A DNA stretch of 64,000 nucleotides from Thermoanaerobaculia bacterium (GTDB lineage: Bacteria > Acidobacteriota > Thermoanaerobaculia > Multivoradales > J023). Location: positions 20,415-84,414 of the forward strand of contig JALCBJ010000001.1 in the NCBI GenBank assembly GCA_028066595.1, in the 5' to 3' direction. The position numbers and the translations under genes are program-made. A model generated the notes under the pieces. It saw only the letters and a list, made by a program, of their open reading frames with translations. It did no database searches and was not told the origin of the DNA. This document shows positions 17,966-27,084 of this stretch, in pieces (the stretch's first letter is position 1; each line of letters opens with the position of its first letter).

Positions 17966-17980
17966 TGGCACGGACGTTGC
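17966..17980 (+). promoter_or_regulatory. Sigma-54 (-24/-12) promoter upstream of the TPR / exported / barrel genes
   Basis: TGGCACG (17966-17972), four bases, then TTGC (17977-17980) match the RpoN consensus exactly, with ten bases between the GG and GC. Start would be near 17992, leaving a leader of about 258 bases before the ATG at 18250. A short palindrome, GTTGCAAC (17918-17925), lies upstream and could be part of an enhancer site. A second possible -10 (TATACT at 18078-18083) has no good -35. The rest of the 356-bp gap (17894-18249) shows nothing else. Confidence 0.6.
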
Positions 17981-18249: not shown

Positions 18250-18819
18250 ATGAAATCCGGATCCTCTTCCGGCCTTAGCAAGACTCCCTCCTCCGATGCC
18301 GCCCCGCTCGGCTCGTACCTGCGTCACACGACGATACGACTTGCGATGCCGGTGGTGCTCGTGCTCGCCCTGGCTCTGAGCTCAGCAGCCACGGCGCCGG
18401 CTCAGGACTCCCAGGCGCTGGCCCGAACCAGCCAGGTGACCGATGCCAAGGAGCAGCTGGATTTCGGCGTCCGAATGGCCCGACGCGGCCTGTGGAGCGA
18501 GGCTCTCTTCCGTTTCAAACAGGCGCGGCGGCTCGATCCGGGGAATGCCCGCGTGCTGAACAACATGGCCGTCGCCTACGAAGCGCTCGGCCAGTTCGAC
18601 AACGCGCTCGAGACTTACCAGGAGGCGATCAGGATCCAGTCGACCGACCGCGATCTGCGCAAGAACTATTCACGCTTCGTCGAGTTCTACCGCGCGTTCC
18701 GGCCGGACGACCAAAAGGACGCCTCTCTCGAGGATTCAGAGACCTCCACCGAGCAAGCTGCCAACGACAACGAGCCCGTGGCCGAGCCGGCAGATGGAGA
18801 ATCGGGGTCGGGGCAATGA
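18250..18819 (+). CDS. Exported TPR protein
   Basis: 189 residues. A basic, serine-rich N terminus is followed by a membrane segment (about 32-50, VVLVLALALSSAATAPA) that looks like a late signal sequence or anchor. Residues 65-140 contain TPR helices such as EQLDFGVRMARRGLWSEAL, RRLDPGNARVLNNMAVAYE and AIRIQSTDRDLRKNY. The tail is acidic. AAGGA lies 7 bases before the ATG. It is first in a three-gene run behind the sigma-54 promoter, and the next start lies 94 bp further on. Function unknown; an envelope adaptor is likely. Confidence 0.75.
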   Translation: MKSGSSSGLSKTPSSDAAPLGSYLRHTTIRLAMPVVLVLALALSSAATAPAQDSQALARTSQVTDAKEQLDFGVRMARRGLWSEALFRFKQARRLDPGNARVLNNMAVAYEALGQFDNALETYQEAIRIQSTDRDLRKNYSRFVEFYRAFRPDDQKDASLEDSETSTEQAANDNEPVAEPADGESGSGQ

Positions 18820-22714: not shown

Positions 22715-24292
22715 CTAACGAGCGCCCTGCGCCAGGGCTTCTCGGACAGCCGCTACGGCCTCGTCCACTGCGATGCGCTCCTGGCGGCGATCGTCACGGT
22801 AGCGCAGGGTGACGGTGTCGTCATCCTTGGTCTGTCCGTCGACGGTCAAGCAATAGGGCGTCCCCACCTCGTCGTGCCGCGCGTACCGCTTGCCGATGGC
22901 GTGCTGCTCGTCGTACTTGGCGTTGATGCCCGCATCCAAGAAGCGCGACACGATCTCCCGCGCCTTCTCCGGCATGCCTTCCTTCTTCACCAGAGGCAGG
23001 ACGCCAGCCTTGATCGGCGCCAGGCGCGGATGAAGTCGCAACACGGTGCGCTCGCCCTTCCCCTGCTCATCGGCCGGCTCCTCGGCATAGGCATCGCACA
23101 GTAGCGCGAGCACGCCACGGGTGGCGCCGGCGGCGGGTTCAACCACGTGCGGTGCGTAGCGCCAACCGTTCTTGCCCGTCACGGGGTCCTGGGACTGCGG
23201 GTCGAAGTAGGTGAGGTTCTTTCCCGAAGCCTGTGCATGGGCGCGGAGATCGTAGTCGGTACGTGAAGCGATGCCTTCCAGCTCGTCCCACCCCCATGGA
23301 AACTGGTACTCCACGTCGAAACAGCCGTCTGAATAGTGAGCCAGCTCGTCGTCACCGTGTCGGCGGAAGCGCAGGTTGTCCCGACGCAAGAACGTGCTCC
23401 ACCAGGTCATGCGTTCTTCCTTCCAGTATTCGAGCCACTTCATACCCTCGCCGGGCTCCACGAAGTACTCCATCTCCATTTGCTCGAACTCCACGGAACG
23501 GAAAATGAAGTGCTCCACGGTCACTTCGTTGCGGAAGCTCTTGCCCATCTGGGCGATGCCGAAGGGGACCTTCATCGCCGTCGACTGCAGAACGTTGGCA
23601 AACTGCACGAACATGGCCTGTGCCGTCTCGGGGCGCAGGTAGACCGAGCTCGCTTCGAGCGCCTTCTCGGCTGCAGCGCGTGTGTCCTCACCCGCCGCCA
23701 CCGCCGCCTCCACAGCTTTCGCCACTTCGGCGATCGGATCCACCGGACCAAGAAAGCTGCGCAGCATGAGGTTGAACTGACGCTCGTCCGACAGAAAGGG
23801 CGAGCCGCAGCTGGGGCAAACGTAACCGGTGCGGCCGCCCTGGGCACCGTAGATGCTCTTGCCGACGCGCCGGAAATCCACGCCTGGGGCCACCTTGGCG
23901 AGGCGCTCTTGCGCGGCTTTGGCGCGACCCTTGTCGGCGAACTCCAGGTCAGCGTCGTCACCCTCTGCGAGCCTCGGCGCCTTGTCGGCACGGAAGCGCT
24001 CGCCACACACTTTGCAGTCCACCAGGGGGTCGGAGAACGAGGCGAGATGCCCACTCGCCTGCCAGACCTGAGGATGCATGACGATGGACGCGTCCAGGCC
24101 GACGATGTCCTCGCGACTGTGCACCATCGCGCGCCACCACTCGTTCATCAAATTACGCTTCAGCTCGACTCCCATGGGTCCGTAGTCGTAGCTGGAGCGA
24201 AGCCCGCCGTAGATTTCGGAGCTCTGGTAGACGAAACCGCGCCGCTTGGCCAGCGACACGATCTTCTGCATGGAGGGACTTTCCTGGGTCAT
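22715..24292 (-). CDS. glyQS: Glycyl-tRNA synthetase (single-chain alpha2 type)
   Basis: 525 residues. QSSEIYGGLRSSYDYGPMG, then LVDCKVCGERFRADKAPRL and GYVCPSCGSPF (two zinc-type CxxC pairs), then GKSFRNEVT (class II motif 2 region) and RTDYDLRAH, GVLALLCDAYAEE and APIKAGVLPLVKKEG follow the order of the homodimeric enzyme; the anticodon-binding region is in the last 110 residues. The enzyme charges tRNA-Gly and belongs to the archaeal/eukaryal-like type found in many bacteria. The ATG at 24292 follows GAGAGAAACG; the frame upstream is not family-like. Confidence 0.95.
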   Translation of the reverse strand: MTQESPSMQKIVSLAKRRGFVYQSSEIYGGLRSSYDYGPMGVELKRNLMNEWWRAMVHSREDIVGLDASIVMHPQVWQASGHLASFSDPLVDCKVCGERFRADKAPRLAEGDDADLEFADKGRAKAAQERLAKVAPGVDFRRVGKSIYGAQGGRTGYVCPSCGSPFLSDERQFNLMLRSFLGPVDPIAEVAKAVEAAVAAGEDTRAAAEKALEASSVYLRPETAQAMFVQFANVLQSTAMKVPFGIAQMGKSFRNEVTVEHFIFRSVEFEQMEMEYFVEPGEGMKWLEYWKEERMTWWSTFLRRDNLRFRRHGDDELAHYSDGCFDVEYQFPWGWDELEGIASRTDYDLRAHAQASGKNLTYFDPQSQDPVTGKNGWRYAPHVVEPAAGATRGVLALLCDAYAEEPADEQGKGERTVLRLHPRLAPIKAGVLPLVKKEGMPEKAREIVSRFLDAGINAKYDEQHAIGKRYARHDEVGTPYCLTVDGQTKDDDTVTLRYRDDRRQERIAVDEAVAAVREALAQGAR

Positions 24293-24513
24293 CGTTTCTC
24301 TCGGCGCTTGGGGTTCTCGATTTTGCGGGTATCGCGGAGGTGGTTTTGTACCACAGCACCGGGCGCCCGCAGAACGAGCCACCCGACGTGACACAAGGGT
24401 CGCACAAGCACGAAGGTGCGAAATCTGCAGTCGCTCAGATGCGAGAACCGCACGCGTTGCGCATCCCGCACGCAGTCTAGAGCCCAAGGCCCAGTTTTCC
24501 GGCGCCGAAAAGT

Positions 24514-24528
24514 TGGCACCGACCTTGC
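24514..24528 (+). promoter_or_regulatory. Sigma-54 promoter of small RNA candidate 1
   Basis: TGGCACC, four bases (GACC), then TTGC match the -24/-12 consensus with ten bases between GG and GC. Expected start is near 24540. Confidence 0.65.
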
Positions 24529-24539
24529 TCTATAGGAAG

Positions 24540-24658
24540 GCGTACGTGGCAAACGCCACGCGTCGAAAATACGACAGGCTAGAGACCGACCCGCGGAGGC
24601 CGTTGTTGGCCACCCCGATTCCGCAAAGCCCGGTTTCCAACCTGTCGATTTCTTTTTT
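24540..24658 (+). ncRNA. Small RNA candidate 1 (about 119 nt), sigma-54-preceded
   Basis: Starting at the site predicted by its promoter, the RNA would have a 5' hairpin (CGTGGC 24545-24550, loop AAAC, GCCACG 24555-24560), then CGTC and an A-rich linker, then CGACAGG (24572-24578) pairing with CCTGTCG (24641-24647). The closing stem is followed by ATTTCTTTTTT, as in intrinsic terminators. A nested GCGGA/TCCGC stem (24593-24597 with 24620-24624) lies inside. No convincing ORF is present. The order of elements repeats in the next copy, which is the main evidence. Family and function are unknown; the sigma-54-driven Pxr sRNA of Myxococcus is a precedent for the control only. Confidence 0.65.
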
Positions 24659-24707
24659 GGGCCAATCTCGCCCCGAGTAAAGAATCCACGCAGCCGCCGT
24701 CTCGATC

Positions 24708-24722
24708 TGGCATTCACCTTGC
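24708..24722 (+). promoter_or_regulatory. Sigma-54 promoter of small RNA candidate 2
   Basis: TGGCATT, four bases (CACC), then TTGC with ten bases between GG and GC, 180 bp after the first one. Expected start is near 24734. Confidence 0.6.
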
Positions 24723-24733
24723 TGAGGTTACCG

Positions 24734-24842
24734 GCGTGGCCGAGAGCCACGCGTCATCACGACAGGTGAGGCGTTCGACAGCGGCAGGTCCTCCAGGCTA
24801 TTCCGTCCGCACGGTCGAACGTCTCACCTGTCGCTTTTCTTT
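24734..24842 (+). ncRNA. Small RNA candidate 2 (about 109 nt), paralogue of candidate 1
   Basis: The 5' hairpin is GCGTGGC (24734-24740), loop CGAGA, GCCACGC (24746-24752), starting right at the predicted transcription start. GCCACGCGTC and ACGACAGG are identical to copy 1. CGACAGGTGAG (24760-24770) pairs with CTCACCTGTCG (24823-24833); with one G-U pair and CGTTCGAC/GTCGAACG this makes a 20-bp stem, with nested GCGG/CCGC in the loop, and CTTTTCTTT follows. The arms vary between copies (RNA 1 has 7 bp) while pairing is kept, as expected for structured RNA under selection. Confidence 0.7.
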
Positions 24843-25312: not shown

Positions 25313-25342
25313 TTGACTCAATGATTCACTGCGTCGTAGACT
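25313..25342 (+). promoter_or_regulatory. Sigma-70-type promoter before the 140-aa gene
   Basis: TTGACT (25313-25318) and TAGACT (25337-25342) are 18 bases apart. Start would be near 25349, only about 5 bases before the ATG at 25354, so the mRNA would be nearly leaderless; no ribosome site is seen. Confidence 0.45.
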
Positions 25343-25353
25343 CGATGTCTATC

Positions 25354-25776
25354 ATGGCTTTTCAGAGATTCACCCGGAAGACCGCCGCGCTAACGAGAGA
25401 CCCCGTAGTAGGCATACAGAAGCGCGGCACGTTCTCGATGAACGCATCCGCCGTTCAAATCTTGCGCGCTACCCGAGACCTCGGTATCGACGAAGAAGTC
25501 GTGGTGGAATTCCTCTACGACCCAGAGAGCCAGACCGTGGGCCTTCAGATCGCAGAAGATCCACTGGAAGGATACGAAGTCAGAAAACAGCCGAACTCGG
25601 AGTCATATCTGGTTTCGGGGCGCTCGTTTACGCAGTACTACAAGCTCGACACCTCTGTCGCGAGGCGTTATAGAGCCGCCGAGAGGAACAATATGCTCGT
25701 AATTGACCTCAAGAGGCCCCTAGGACAAAGCAGCCCGGGCCGGCCAAGAGCGGGGGACCTGTTCTCGACGAGGTAG
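25354..25776 (+). CDS. Small conserved hypothetical protein (140 aa)
   Basis: 140 residues from the ATG at 25354; an internal ATG at 25438 is an alternative. The N terminus (MAFQRFTRKTAAL, then VGIQKRGTFSMNASAV) and the later VEFLYDPESQTVGLQI and SYLVSGRSFTQYYKLDTS follow a pattern I recall from small bacterial proteins with two swapped-hairpin-like halves, but I cannot name the family. No signal or membrane segment. It ends 14 bp before a strong terminator, so it forms its own unit in the accessory stretch. The low codon bias compared with neighbours is consistent with transfer. Confidence 0.65.
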   Translation: MAFQRFTRKTAALTRDPVVGIQKRGTFSMNASAVQILRATRDLGIDEEVVVEFLYDPESQTVGLQIAEDPLEGYEVRKQPNSESYLVSGRSFTQYYKLDTSVARRYRAAERNNMLVIDLKRPLGQSSPGRPRAGDLFSTR

Positions 25777-25790
25777 ACAAGTTCTAATAG

Positions 25791-25824
25791 TGAAGGGGAA
25801 GCGGCAGCCACCGCTTCCCCTTCA
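25791..25824 (+). terminator. Strong terminator hairpin
   Basis: TGAAGGGGAAGCGG and CCGCTTCCCCTTCA form a perfect 14-bp stem around CAGCCA, 15 bases after the stop of the 140-aa gene. ATCACAAA follows rather than a T run. Confidence 0.8.
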
Positions 25825-25834
25825 ATCACAAACC

Positions 25835-25902
25835 GAGGCCCCCGCCGATGGGGGCACCCTTAGGTTGTACACCCTGAGTGTACCACCGTCGGCGGGCGCT
25901 TC
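25835..25902. repeat. 68-bp imperfect palindrome before the small SANT-like gene
   Basis: The two 34-base arms match at 27 positions, with three of the seven differences giving G-U pairs in RNA, and meet at TGTACA. Six or seven of the differences fall three bases apart or a multiple of three, so both strands spell nearly the same peptide pattern (APADGGTLR, then VPPSAGA). It ends 19 bases before the ATG at 25922. It may be a dispersed repeat, a hairpin in the leader, or a mobile-element scar. Confidence 0.7.
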
Positions 25903-25921
25903 AAGCACATGGAGAAACCCC

Positions 25922-26146
25922 ATGGCTCGAAGTACGAAGTCGAACAGAAACGCCGGCAAACGCTGGACCTCAACGGAAGAAGCGACGCTCCAGAAGCTCG
26001 CCTCGAAGAACACACCAACCCGGGTCATCGGGCTAAAGCTCGGACGGACAGAAGACGCCGTCTACTCGAAGGCGAGTGCACTCGGCGTTTCGCTGAAGCC
26101 GGTGAATCAGTCACCCTACGGCCGGAGTGGGAGTGGTTCCCGATGA
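25922..26146 (+). CDS. Small SANT/Myb-like or HTH DNA-binding protein (74 aa)
   Basis: 74 residues: MARSTKSNRNAGKRWTST, then EEATLQKLASKNTPTRVIGL, KLGRTEDAVYSKASALG and SLKPVNQSPYG. This matches a widespread small bacterial family with three helices resembling a SANT/Myb or GcrA-type reader, in which GRTEDAV is the recognition helix; family recall is from memory. GGAG lies 9 bases before the ATG. The stop overlaps the start of the 313-aa gene (ATGA), so the two are translationally coupled. Possible regulator of the pair; target unknown. Confidence 0.75.
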   Translation: MARSTKSNRNAGKRWTSTEEATLQKLASKNTPTRVIGLKLGRTEDAVYSKASALGVSLKPVNQSPYGRSGSGSR

Positions 26147-27084
26147 TCATTCGGAAGTCACGCATCCGCTCTCTTCAGTCCTATCTCGCCGGTGTTGCCG
26201 AAGGTGAATCCTTCACCTTCGGCACGCGGGTGTCCTCAGAGATCCAAGCCCGCCTCTACGAGTTCGGGTTCTCGAGAATCTGGATCGATGGTGAGACCCT
26301 ACTACCCCCCTGCTCGGCCGGACCTTCATGCCGGAAGAATGCGGAAGGATGGGAAATCGTCCATCGCGACCAGCCGAAGGAAACAGCCTATCGGCAGTTC
26401 GAATGGAGCTGGACCGAGTGGCATGGTCCCTATGGACACGTAGAGTCCAGAATCATCGATCAGCAATACGAGCGCTACCCTCGGACTCACGTTCCGCCAC
26501 CGTCCATCGAGATCTACACGGTCAGCACGCCGCAGGGCCGCATGGTAGTTCTTGGACGGACCTTCCTGCAGGGCGACGAAGACCTCGACTACGCCAAGCT
26601 CGGCGTCAATGTCCTCCTAGAGCTGTTCAGTGAGGCCGAACTCTTGCACGAGAACCTGACGGCCATCGTTCCGGCCAAGGTTCGAAGGGTCAACTGGAAG
26701 GTACTGCCTCAAGGCCGGCATCCTTGGGCGACTCTTCAACTGTCGGTTCGGGACGTCCTGGACGCACAGGGCGAGCGGAAGAGGCCCGTCTTCGAGCACC
26801 GATGGGAGACCATCTCCGGCTACAGCCCGGACTTCGTTGCCGTAGGGCGCGCCGGATTCTCCGGCTACTTGATCTTCGGATTCACCGACTGCTCTCTCTA
26901 CATCCTCGAGAGTGCTCACTACGGCAACGCCACCTACGTCCTGGATCGGGATTGGGAAGCGCTGTCCTCTCTGACCAAGGCCGAGCTACTCGACGCGTCC
27001 CTCCACCAGGATCGTCTCATCCATACCGACAACTGGGATCGCCGTATTCGCGGGCTCCTCAGAGGCGCCAGGCGCGCTTCTTGA
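26143..27084 (+). CDS. Hypothetical protein coupled to the SANT-like gene (313 aa)
   Basis: 313 residues from an ATG that overlaps the previous stop. No signal peptide, membrane segment or known catalytic motif is visible. Notable features are an aromatic-rich core (AYRQFEWSWTEWHGPYGH, DRDWEALSS) and a Gly/Pro/Cys segment, LPPCSAGPSC, with two cysteines. A short hydrophobic patch (YLIFGFTDCSLYIL) lies near residue 250. I do not recognise it. The accessory location and translational coupling suggest a toxin, defence or phage-derived function, but nothing in the sequence proves it. Confidence 0.6.
   Translation: MIIRKSRIRSLQSYLAGVAEGESFTFGTRVSSEIQARLYEFGFSRIWIDGETLLPPCSAGPSCRKNAEGWEIVHRDQPKETAYRQFEWSWTEWHGPYGHVESRIIDQQYERYPRTHVPPPSIEIYTVSTPQGRMVVLGRTFLQGDEDLDYAKLGVNVLLELFSEAELLHENLTAIVPAKVRRVNWKVLPQGRHPWATLQLSVRDVLDAQGERKRPVFEHRWETISGYSPDFVAVGRAGFSGYLIFGFTDCSLYILESAHYGNATYVLDRDWEALSSLTKAELLDASLHQDRLIHTDNWDRRIRGLLRGARRAS

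Follow-up and report, generated by a model that had tools for sequence, protein, structure and literature searches.

Tandem candidate small RNAs behind sigma-54-like promoters, and a separate RNA family of similar layout, in a Thermoanaerobaculia bacterium

Two structured units beside the glycyl-tRNA synthetase gene

The window, a stretch of 64,000 nucleotides from a contig of a Thermoanaerobaculia bacterium, carries two units of the same layout in tandem on the plus strand. The pair is flanked by the gene for glycyl-tRNA synthetase (GlyRS; minus strand, start near 24292) and by two plus-strand ORFs (25321 and 25909). Its features are listed below, with the basis of each call in parentheses.

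24400–24421, no strand assigned: inverted repeat TCGCAC-N10-GTGCGA, about 130 bp upstream of the copy 1 +1 (speculative activator-binding site)
24514–24528, plus: sigma-54 −24/−12 boxes of copy 1, TGGCACCGACCTTGC (spacing, pattern match)
24540–24658, plus: candidate RNA copy 1, from predicted +1 to the end of the T-run (MFE −48.2 kcal/mol, z −4.42)
24540–24563, plus: 5′ hairpin of copy 1, GCG-UA-CGUGGC-AAAC-GCCACG-CGU (fold)
24572–24647, plus: closing stem-loop of copy 1, with CGACAGG/CCUGUCG, a 3×3 internal loop and GAGACCG/CGGUUUC (fold, copy alignment)
24649–24658, plus: terminator-like T-run behind the copy 1 closing stem (sequence)
24708–24722, plus: sigma-54 −24/−12 boxes of copy 2, TGGCATTCACCTTGC (spacing, pattern match)
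24734–24842, plus: candidate RNA copy 2, from predicted +1 to the end of the T-run (MFE −61.1 kcal/mol, z −7.51)
24734–24752, plus: 5′ hairpin of copy 2, GCGUGGC-CGAGA-GCCACGC, starting at +1 (fold)
24760–24833, plus: closing stem-loop of copy 2, 20 bp, arms 24760–24779 and 24814–24833 (fold)
24789–24795, plus: UCCUCCA in the copy 2 apical loop, an anti-Shine-Dalgarno-like candidate seed (accessibility against shuffles)
24835–24842, plus: terminator-like T-run behind the copy 2 closing stem (sequence)

Both sets of boxes have the exact GG-N10-GC spacing described in a first-pass annotation of this DNA, and their starts are 194 bp apart. Counting 12 nt from the −12 C places the predicted +1 at 24540 and 24734, and the ‘GCG’ at both positions forms the opening bases of the 5′ hairpin. 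As had been noticed, the hairpin begins near the predicted start; in copy 2, GCGTGGC/GCCACGC pairs from +1, and in copy 1, CGTGGC/GCCACG pairs from +6, enclosed by outer GCG/CGU pairing from +1. A comparable hairpin starting within 8 nt is found at 7% of background positions. TCTATAGG lies downstream of the copy 1 boxes, and recurs at other sigma-54 sites of the same taxonomic family. The inverted repeat TCGCAC-N10-GTGCGA is present in the window as a sole exact copy, short inverted repeats being common by chance. It is a speculative activator site for copy 1, and is not common to the other sigma-54 RNA family described below (R2).

Downstream of the hairpin, the previously reported segments GCCACGCGTC and ACGACAGG were found in each copy, as were the CGACAGG/CCTGTCG closing stem and the T-run. 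GCCACGCGUC and ACGACAGG are identical letter for letter in both copies, and the stem sequence of the 5′ hairpin is invariant between them. Against dinucleotide shuffles on the plus strand, the z-scores of the folds are −4.4 (copy 1) and −7.5 (copy 2), placing the copies at ranks 1 and 2 among 86 sigma-54-like sites in three genomes. A terminator scan did not call the closing hairpins of the pair because their loops far exceed its length limit. Pfam gave zero matches among the ORFs overlapping the two units, and the copies differ in length by amounts that are not divisible by three, which speaks against one common reading frame.

The closing stem had been given as about 20 bp in copy 2 and as stopping at 7 bp in copy 1. 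The former stands, but copy 1 continues beyond an internal loop with seven further pairs, 24582–24588 with 24631–24637, after a symmetric 3×3 loop. These pairs sit at exactly the offset predicted from the 20-bp helix of copy 2. When the copies are aligned by the closing stem, GAGACCG/CGGUUUC of copy 1 lies opposite GGCGUUC/GAACGUC of copy 2. Five of the seven pairs in this inner segment differ by double compensatory changes, one by a one-sided change, and one is unchanged, all being canonical or GU. When the partners are slid by 1–3 columns, pairing falls from 100% to 30–48%. A seven-pair match at a fixed offset has a chance of about 0.001, and a shuffle control, which is weak with two sequences, was as high in 21 of 500 shuffles. 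Because the inner pairs are compensated between the copies, the long helix was kept while its sequence turned over.

The description of the units as tandem, structured small-RNA candidates preceded by sigma-54 sites is supported, with compensatory changes between the copies and without an Rfam match. The units had also been called independent; they are instead paralogues arising by duplication. Each copy is very probably a gene for a small regulatory RNA.

About 27 full sigma-54 activator domains are encoded in the genome, and the activator nearest to the pair on the contig is about 40 kb off (C192:84937). In the genome of the window and six relatives, sigma-54 sites were listed by the patterns TGGCAY-N5-TTGCW (or TTGCT), with the reversed pattern as the control. 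Exact patterns are strongly enriched over the control in five relatives (33 vs 5, 41 vs 4, 45 vs 9, 12 vs 0 and 37 vs 5), and the enrichment is weaker in the sixth (22 vs 8). In the genome of the window, strict patterns barely exceed the control (11 vs 8).

Elsewhere in the window, a good sigma-54-like site, TGGCACGGACGTTGCT, lies at 17966–17980 (plus strand), in the gap between a CofD gene and the gene at 18250 for a TPR protein, with no hairpin at its predicted start. Adjoining the RNA pair, the two ORFs within 25321–27084 (151 and 391 aa) have no Pfam match and lie in a stretch of somewhat lower GC content, possibly an inserted segment.

Searches for relatives and the R2 family

Two of the checks proposed in the first-pass annotation were run. 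In the first, Rfam returned no family match: no match to the window reached the gathering score of Rfam 15, and a permissive run produced only a chance miRNA match far below threshold. The second, the search for orthologues, was negative in every relative covered. The model built from the window pair (R1) yielded nothing credible beyond the pair itself in 72 genomes of the order, and with laxer filters nothing credible in seven genomes of the taxonomic family. Weak R1 matches were without sigma-54 sites, bar one loose match. In six relatives, the DNA upstream of GlyRS holds no counterpart of the pair.

Within its own genome, the pattern of the pair occurs at these two places only. A strict core gave 18 scattered matches among 84,980 species representatives, about the chance number, all lacking the closing stem and none from a myxobacterial record. 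The strict core also gave one scattered match among viral contigs, again without the closing stem and as by chance, and phage and plasmid DNA contained no match to the pair. Among the relatives, the strict core matched once, in the genome G038; this match was rejected as chance, as it sits in a CHAT-like coding stretch. Across 396 genomes of the phylum, a pattern of sigma-54 site and GTGGC hairpin matched 18 places outside the pair, with scattered sequences. As no homologue was found, there is no cross-species conservation of the pair, which is an orphan at the sensitivity of the searches made, since neither a strict core nor a two-sequence model can see far-diverged relatives.

A scan for long-range stems ending at a T-run, with reversed and reverse-complement controls, picked copy 2, a site at C142:21050 in the same genome and one at C3:16891 in the relative G002, with scores of 40–50 against a top control of 21. 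Copy 1 scored 19, from its first 7 bp alone. The C142 site has clear relatives at C49 of G001 and C524 of G006, and these four sites other than the pair (C142, G002 C3, G001 C49 and G006 C524) seeded a second covariance model, R2. Eight members were found in five of the seven family genomes, one in the genome of the window, four in G001 and one each in G002, G003 and G006.

C142:21050–21217: R2 member of the genome of the window (G000)
C49, C48, C32 and C53: R2 members of G001
C3 of G002, C257 of G003 and C524 of G006: one R2 member each

R2 members consist of a sigma-54 site, a short 5′ part, a long closing stem and a T-run, in the sequence frame GAGAGCGGGCUCCG ... CGGAGC-U run. In their 16-bp closing stem, 93% of cells are paired, compared with 79% in shuffles. 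Double changes occur in 7 pairs and 17 cells (shuffle mean 4.6; none of 500 shuffles reached this), in an alignment that was fitted to the model and so biased towards it, 4 of the 8 members being seeds. A palindrome, TGWCC-N6-GGWCA (e.g. TGACCGAATTCGGACA), lies 130–205 bp upstream of the boxes in seven of the eight members and in 0 of 55 control sigma-54 promoters; it looks in every respect like a dedicated activator-binding site. In G002, G003 and G006, the R2 RNA is located between two sigma-54 activator genes, one encoding an AAA+/Fis protein with GIGEGVATG in the region of its GAFTGA-like loop, and the other a response-regulator type NtrC-like protein. R2 has no credible match in Rfam. Arguably, R2 is a stronger find than the window pair.

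Weak R2 matches outside the taxonomic family were rejected, such as that in G297, a long perfect palindrome. The stretch concerned (G297:C354:4184–4388) is nearly perfect over arms of about 74 bp or more, lies beside a start-codon-like sequence, and may be an assembly artefact or an inverted duplication.

Proposed action in trans and competing readings

From sequence and predicted fold, we infer transcription, sigma-54 dependence, action in trans and a seed for the pair. That the locus encodes two paralogous sigma-54-dependent sRNAs acting in trans is, in our judgment, reasonably probable. Two small RNAs of about 110–120 nt each would be transcribed separately, each started by sigma-54 RNA polymerase under an enhancer-binding activator. 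Each would fold into a short 5′ hairpin at or near +1, followed by one long closed domain; the stem of this domain leads directly into the U-run and would so double as an intrinsic terminator. The stems would provide stability, and the apical region exposed by the long domain would act in trans on mRNAs. GUC/GAC pairing as an alternative to the closing stem was rejected as too weak (3–4 bp).

UCCUCCA in the apical region of copy 2 could cover Shine-Dalgarno sequences, and its accessibility was matched in 0 of 60 shuffles. Similar anti-Shine-Dalgarno-like segments are present in the R2 members C53 of G001 (1 of 60 shuffles) and, less clearly, C3 of G002 (4 of 60). Copy 1 has no accessible segment of this kind better than shuffles, and the remaining R2 members are unremarkable. 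Such a seed was rejected as a universal feature, being strong only in copy 2 and G001 C53 and perhaps in G002 C3. Because the seed is accessible in copy 2 but not in copy 1, anti-Shine-Dalgarno pairing is a lead for copy 2, and not an established mode of action.

The strict retention of GCCACGCGUC and CGACAGG suggests a common protein or RNA contact. In the main rival to the trans-acting reading, the RNAs would bind and titrate a protein through GCCACGCGUC, CGACAGG and the 5′ hairpin, as CrcZ/CrcY do with Hfq, and the variable apical region would be irrelevant. Between the strongly diverged copies, no long runs are conserved other than the two identical segments, which lie mostly inside stems, as suits a structure-binding protein; the invariance of the 5′ hairpin stem points the same way. 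However, short-stem identity is also explicable by recent common ancestry, and the repeated single-stranded motif of known titrating RNAs is lacking. CrcZ and CrcY of Pseudomonas and Azotobacter (PMC6292655) resemble the pair as paralogous RpoN-dependent sRNAs in one genome, but titrate Hfq by repeated A-rich motifs, none of which is seen in the pair. We consider titration unlikely, and regard the pair primarily as trans-acting sRNAs.

It also seems quite unlikely that the pair is a fast-diverging branch of R2, with common ancestry and lost sequence likeness. The parts do come in the same order in the same genome and taxonomic family, and the 5′ loop CCGAGAGC is common to copy 2 and the R2 member of the same genome (GGCCGAGAGCC vs CGCCGAGAGCG). 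However, this 8-base similarity is weak, and too little to claim descent. The R2 model aligns with the promoter part of the pair alone (model positions 1–26 in copy 1 and 1–16 in copy 2), and neither the 500 bp around the pair nor the DNA between the units contains TGWCC-N6-GGWCA. For these two reasons, the pair and R2 are taken as two families with one architecture. R2 further differs from the pair in its primary sequence and in a 16-bp covarying stem with a more complex interior; it also has a palindrome of its own upstream, and in three genomes its RNA is flanked on both sides by activator genes.

We give little credence to the sigma-54 boxes being chance matches, with the hairpins, if transcribed, coming from another promoter. 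In its favour, TGGC-N7-TTGC is expected by chance about 1.6 times per window (1.58 calculated, 5 observed). Yet both boxes are duplicated along with the RNA, +1 falls on the hairpin base in each unit, the region of the pair yielded no sigma-70-like site, and relatives likewise use TTGCTCTATAGG-type sites.

That the units are DNA-level palindromes (transposon-end, recombination or REP-like) lying behind sigma-54-like sequences by chance is very unlikely; short inverted repeats are common and the adjoining 25.0–27.1 kb resembles an insert, with its reduced GC content and a pair of ORFs that Pfam does not match, but the genome has just two copies, their position relative to boxes and T-runs is fixed in both units, the conserved asymmetry from 5′ hairpin through closing stem to T-run fits a transcript, and other sigma-54 units of the same plan show covariation.

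Parallels among sigma-54-dependent RNAs

To our knowledge, few sigma-54-dependent RNAs have been described, mostly from Proteobacteria and myxobacteria. Qrr sRNAs of Vibrio and GlmY/GlmZ of enterobacteria are multicopy or paired, with sigma-54 promoters and intrinsic terminators. They differ from the pair, which has no Rfam match, in sequence and fold. A literature search for acidobacterial sigma-54 small RNAs found nothing related.

No tandem family of this form was known to the first-pass annotation, whereas tandem pxr paralogues of Cystobacter had already been published (PMC5568312). The Cystobacter paralogues are diverged and have a sigma-54 promoter each, and two of them are predicted with only two long stem-loops (PMC5568312). 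Pxr is about 108 nt long, is driven by sigma-54, adjoins a sigma-54 response regulator and has, within its last long stem, a conserved core of 8 bp; it is reported from myxobacteria only (PMC5568312, PMC5684412). By analogy, our best reading is that the pair would work like myxobacterial Pxr. Compared through the published descriptions of Pxr, the two have in common an upstream sigma-54 promoter, similar size and stem-loops, and with Cystobacter also the tandem arrangement of diverged paralogues with their own promoters, which is a likeness and not membership. Unlike pxr, which adjoins its response regulator gene (nla19/pxrR), the pair lies upstream of the glycyl-tRNA synthetase gene in divergent orientation, and no activator gene turned up in the neighbourhood that was inspected.

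Because the taxonomic family has a conserved RNA set of the same plan, its sigma-54 switch probably drives an unstudied layer of RNA regulation. We propose, tentatively and with somewhat less than even confidence, that this layer has a common architecture and comprises a conserved activator-linked family and fast-turnover duplicated offshoots, among them the window pair, each with a different activator. The common architecture may consist of a start-proximal small loop and one long closed terminator domain, with an exposed anti-Shine-Dalgarno loop in some RNAs. The pair supplies defined predicted start sites and a compensated stem. R2, with its eight members, covarying stem, palindrome and, in three genomes, activator flanks, opens a sigma-54/RNA circuit to direct testing, and might be entered as a new RNA family.
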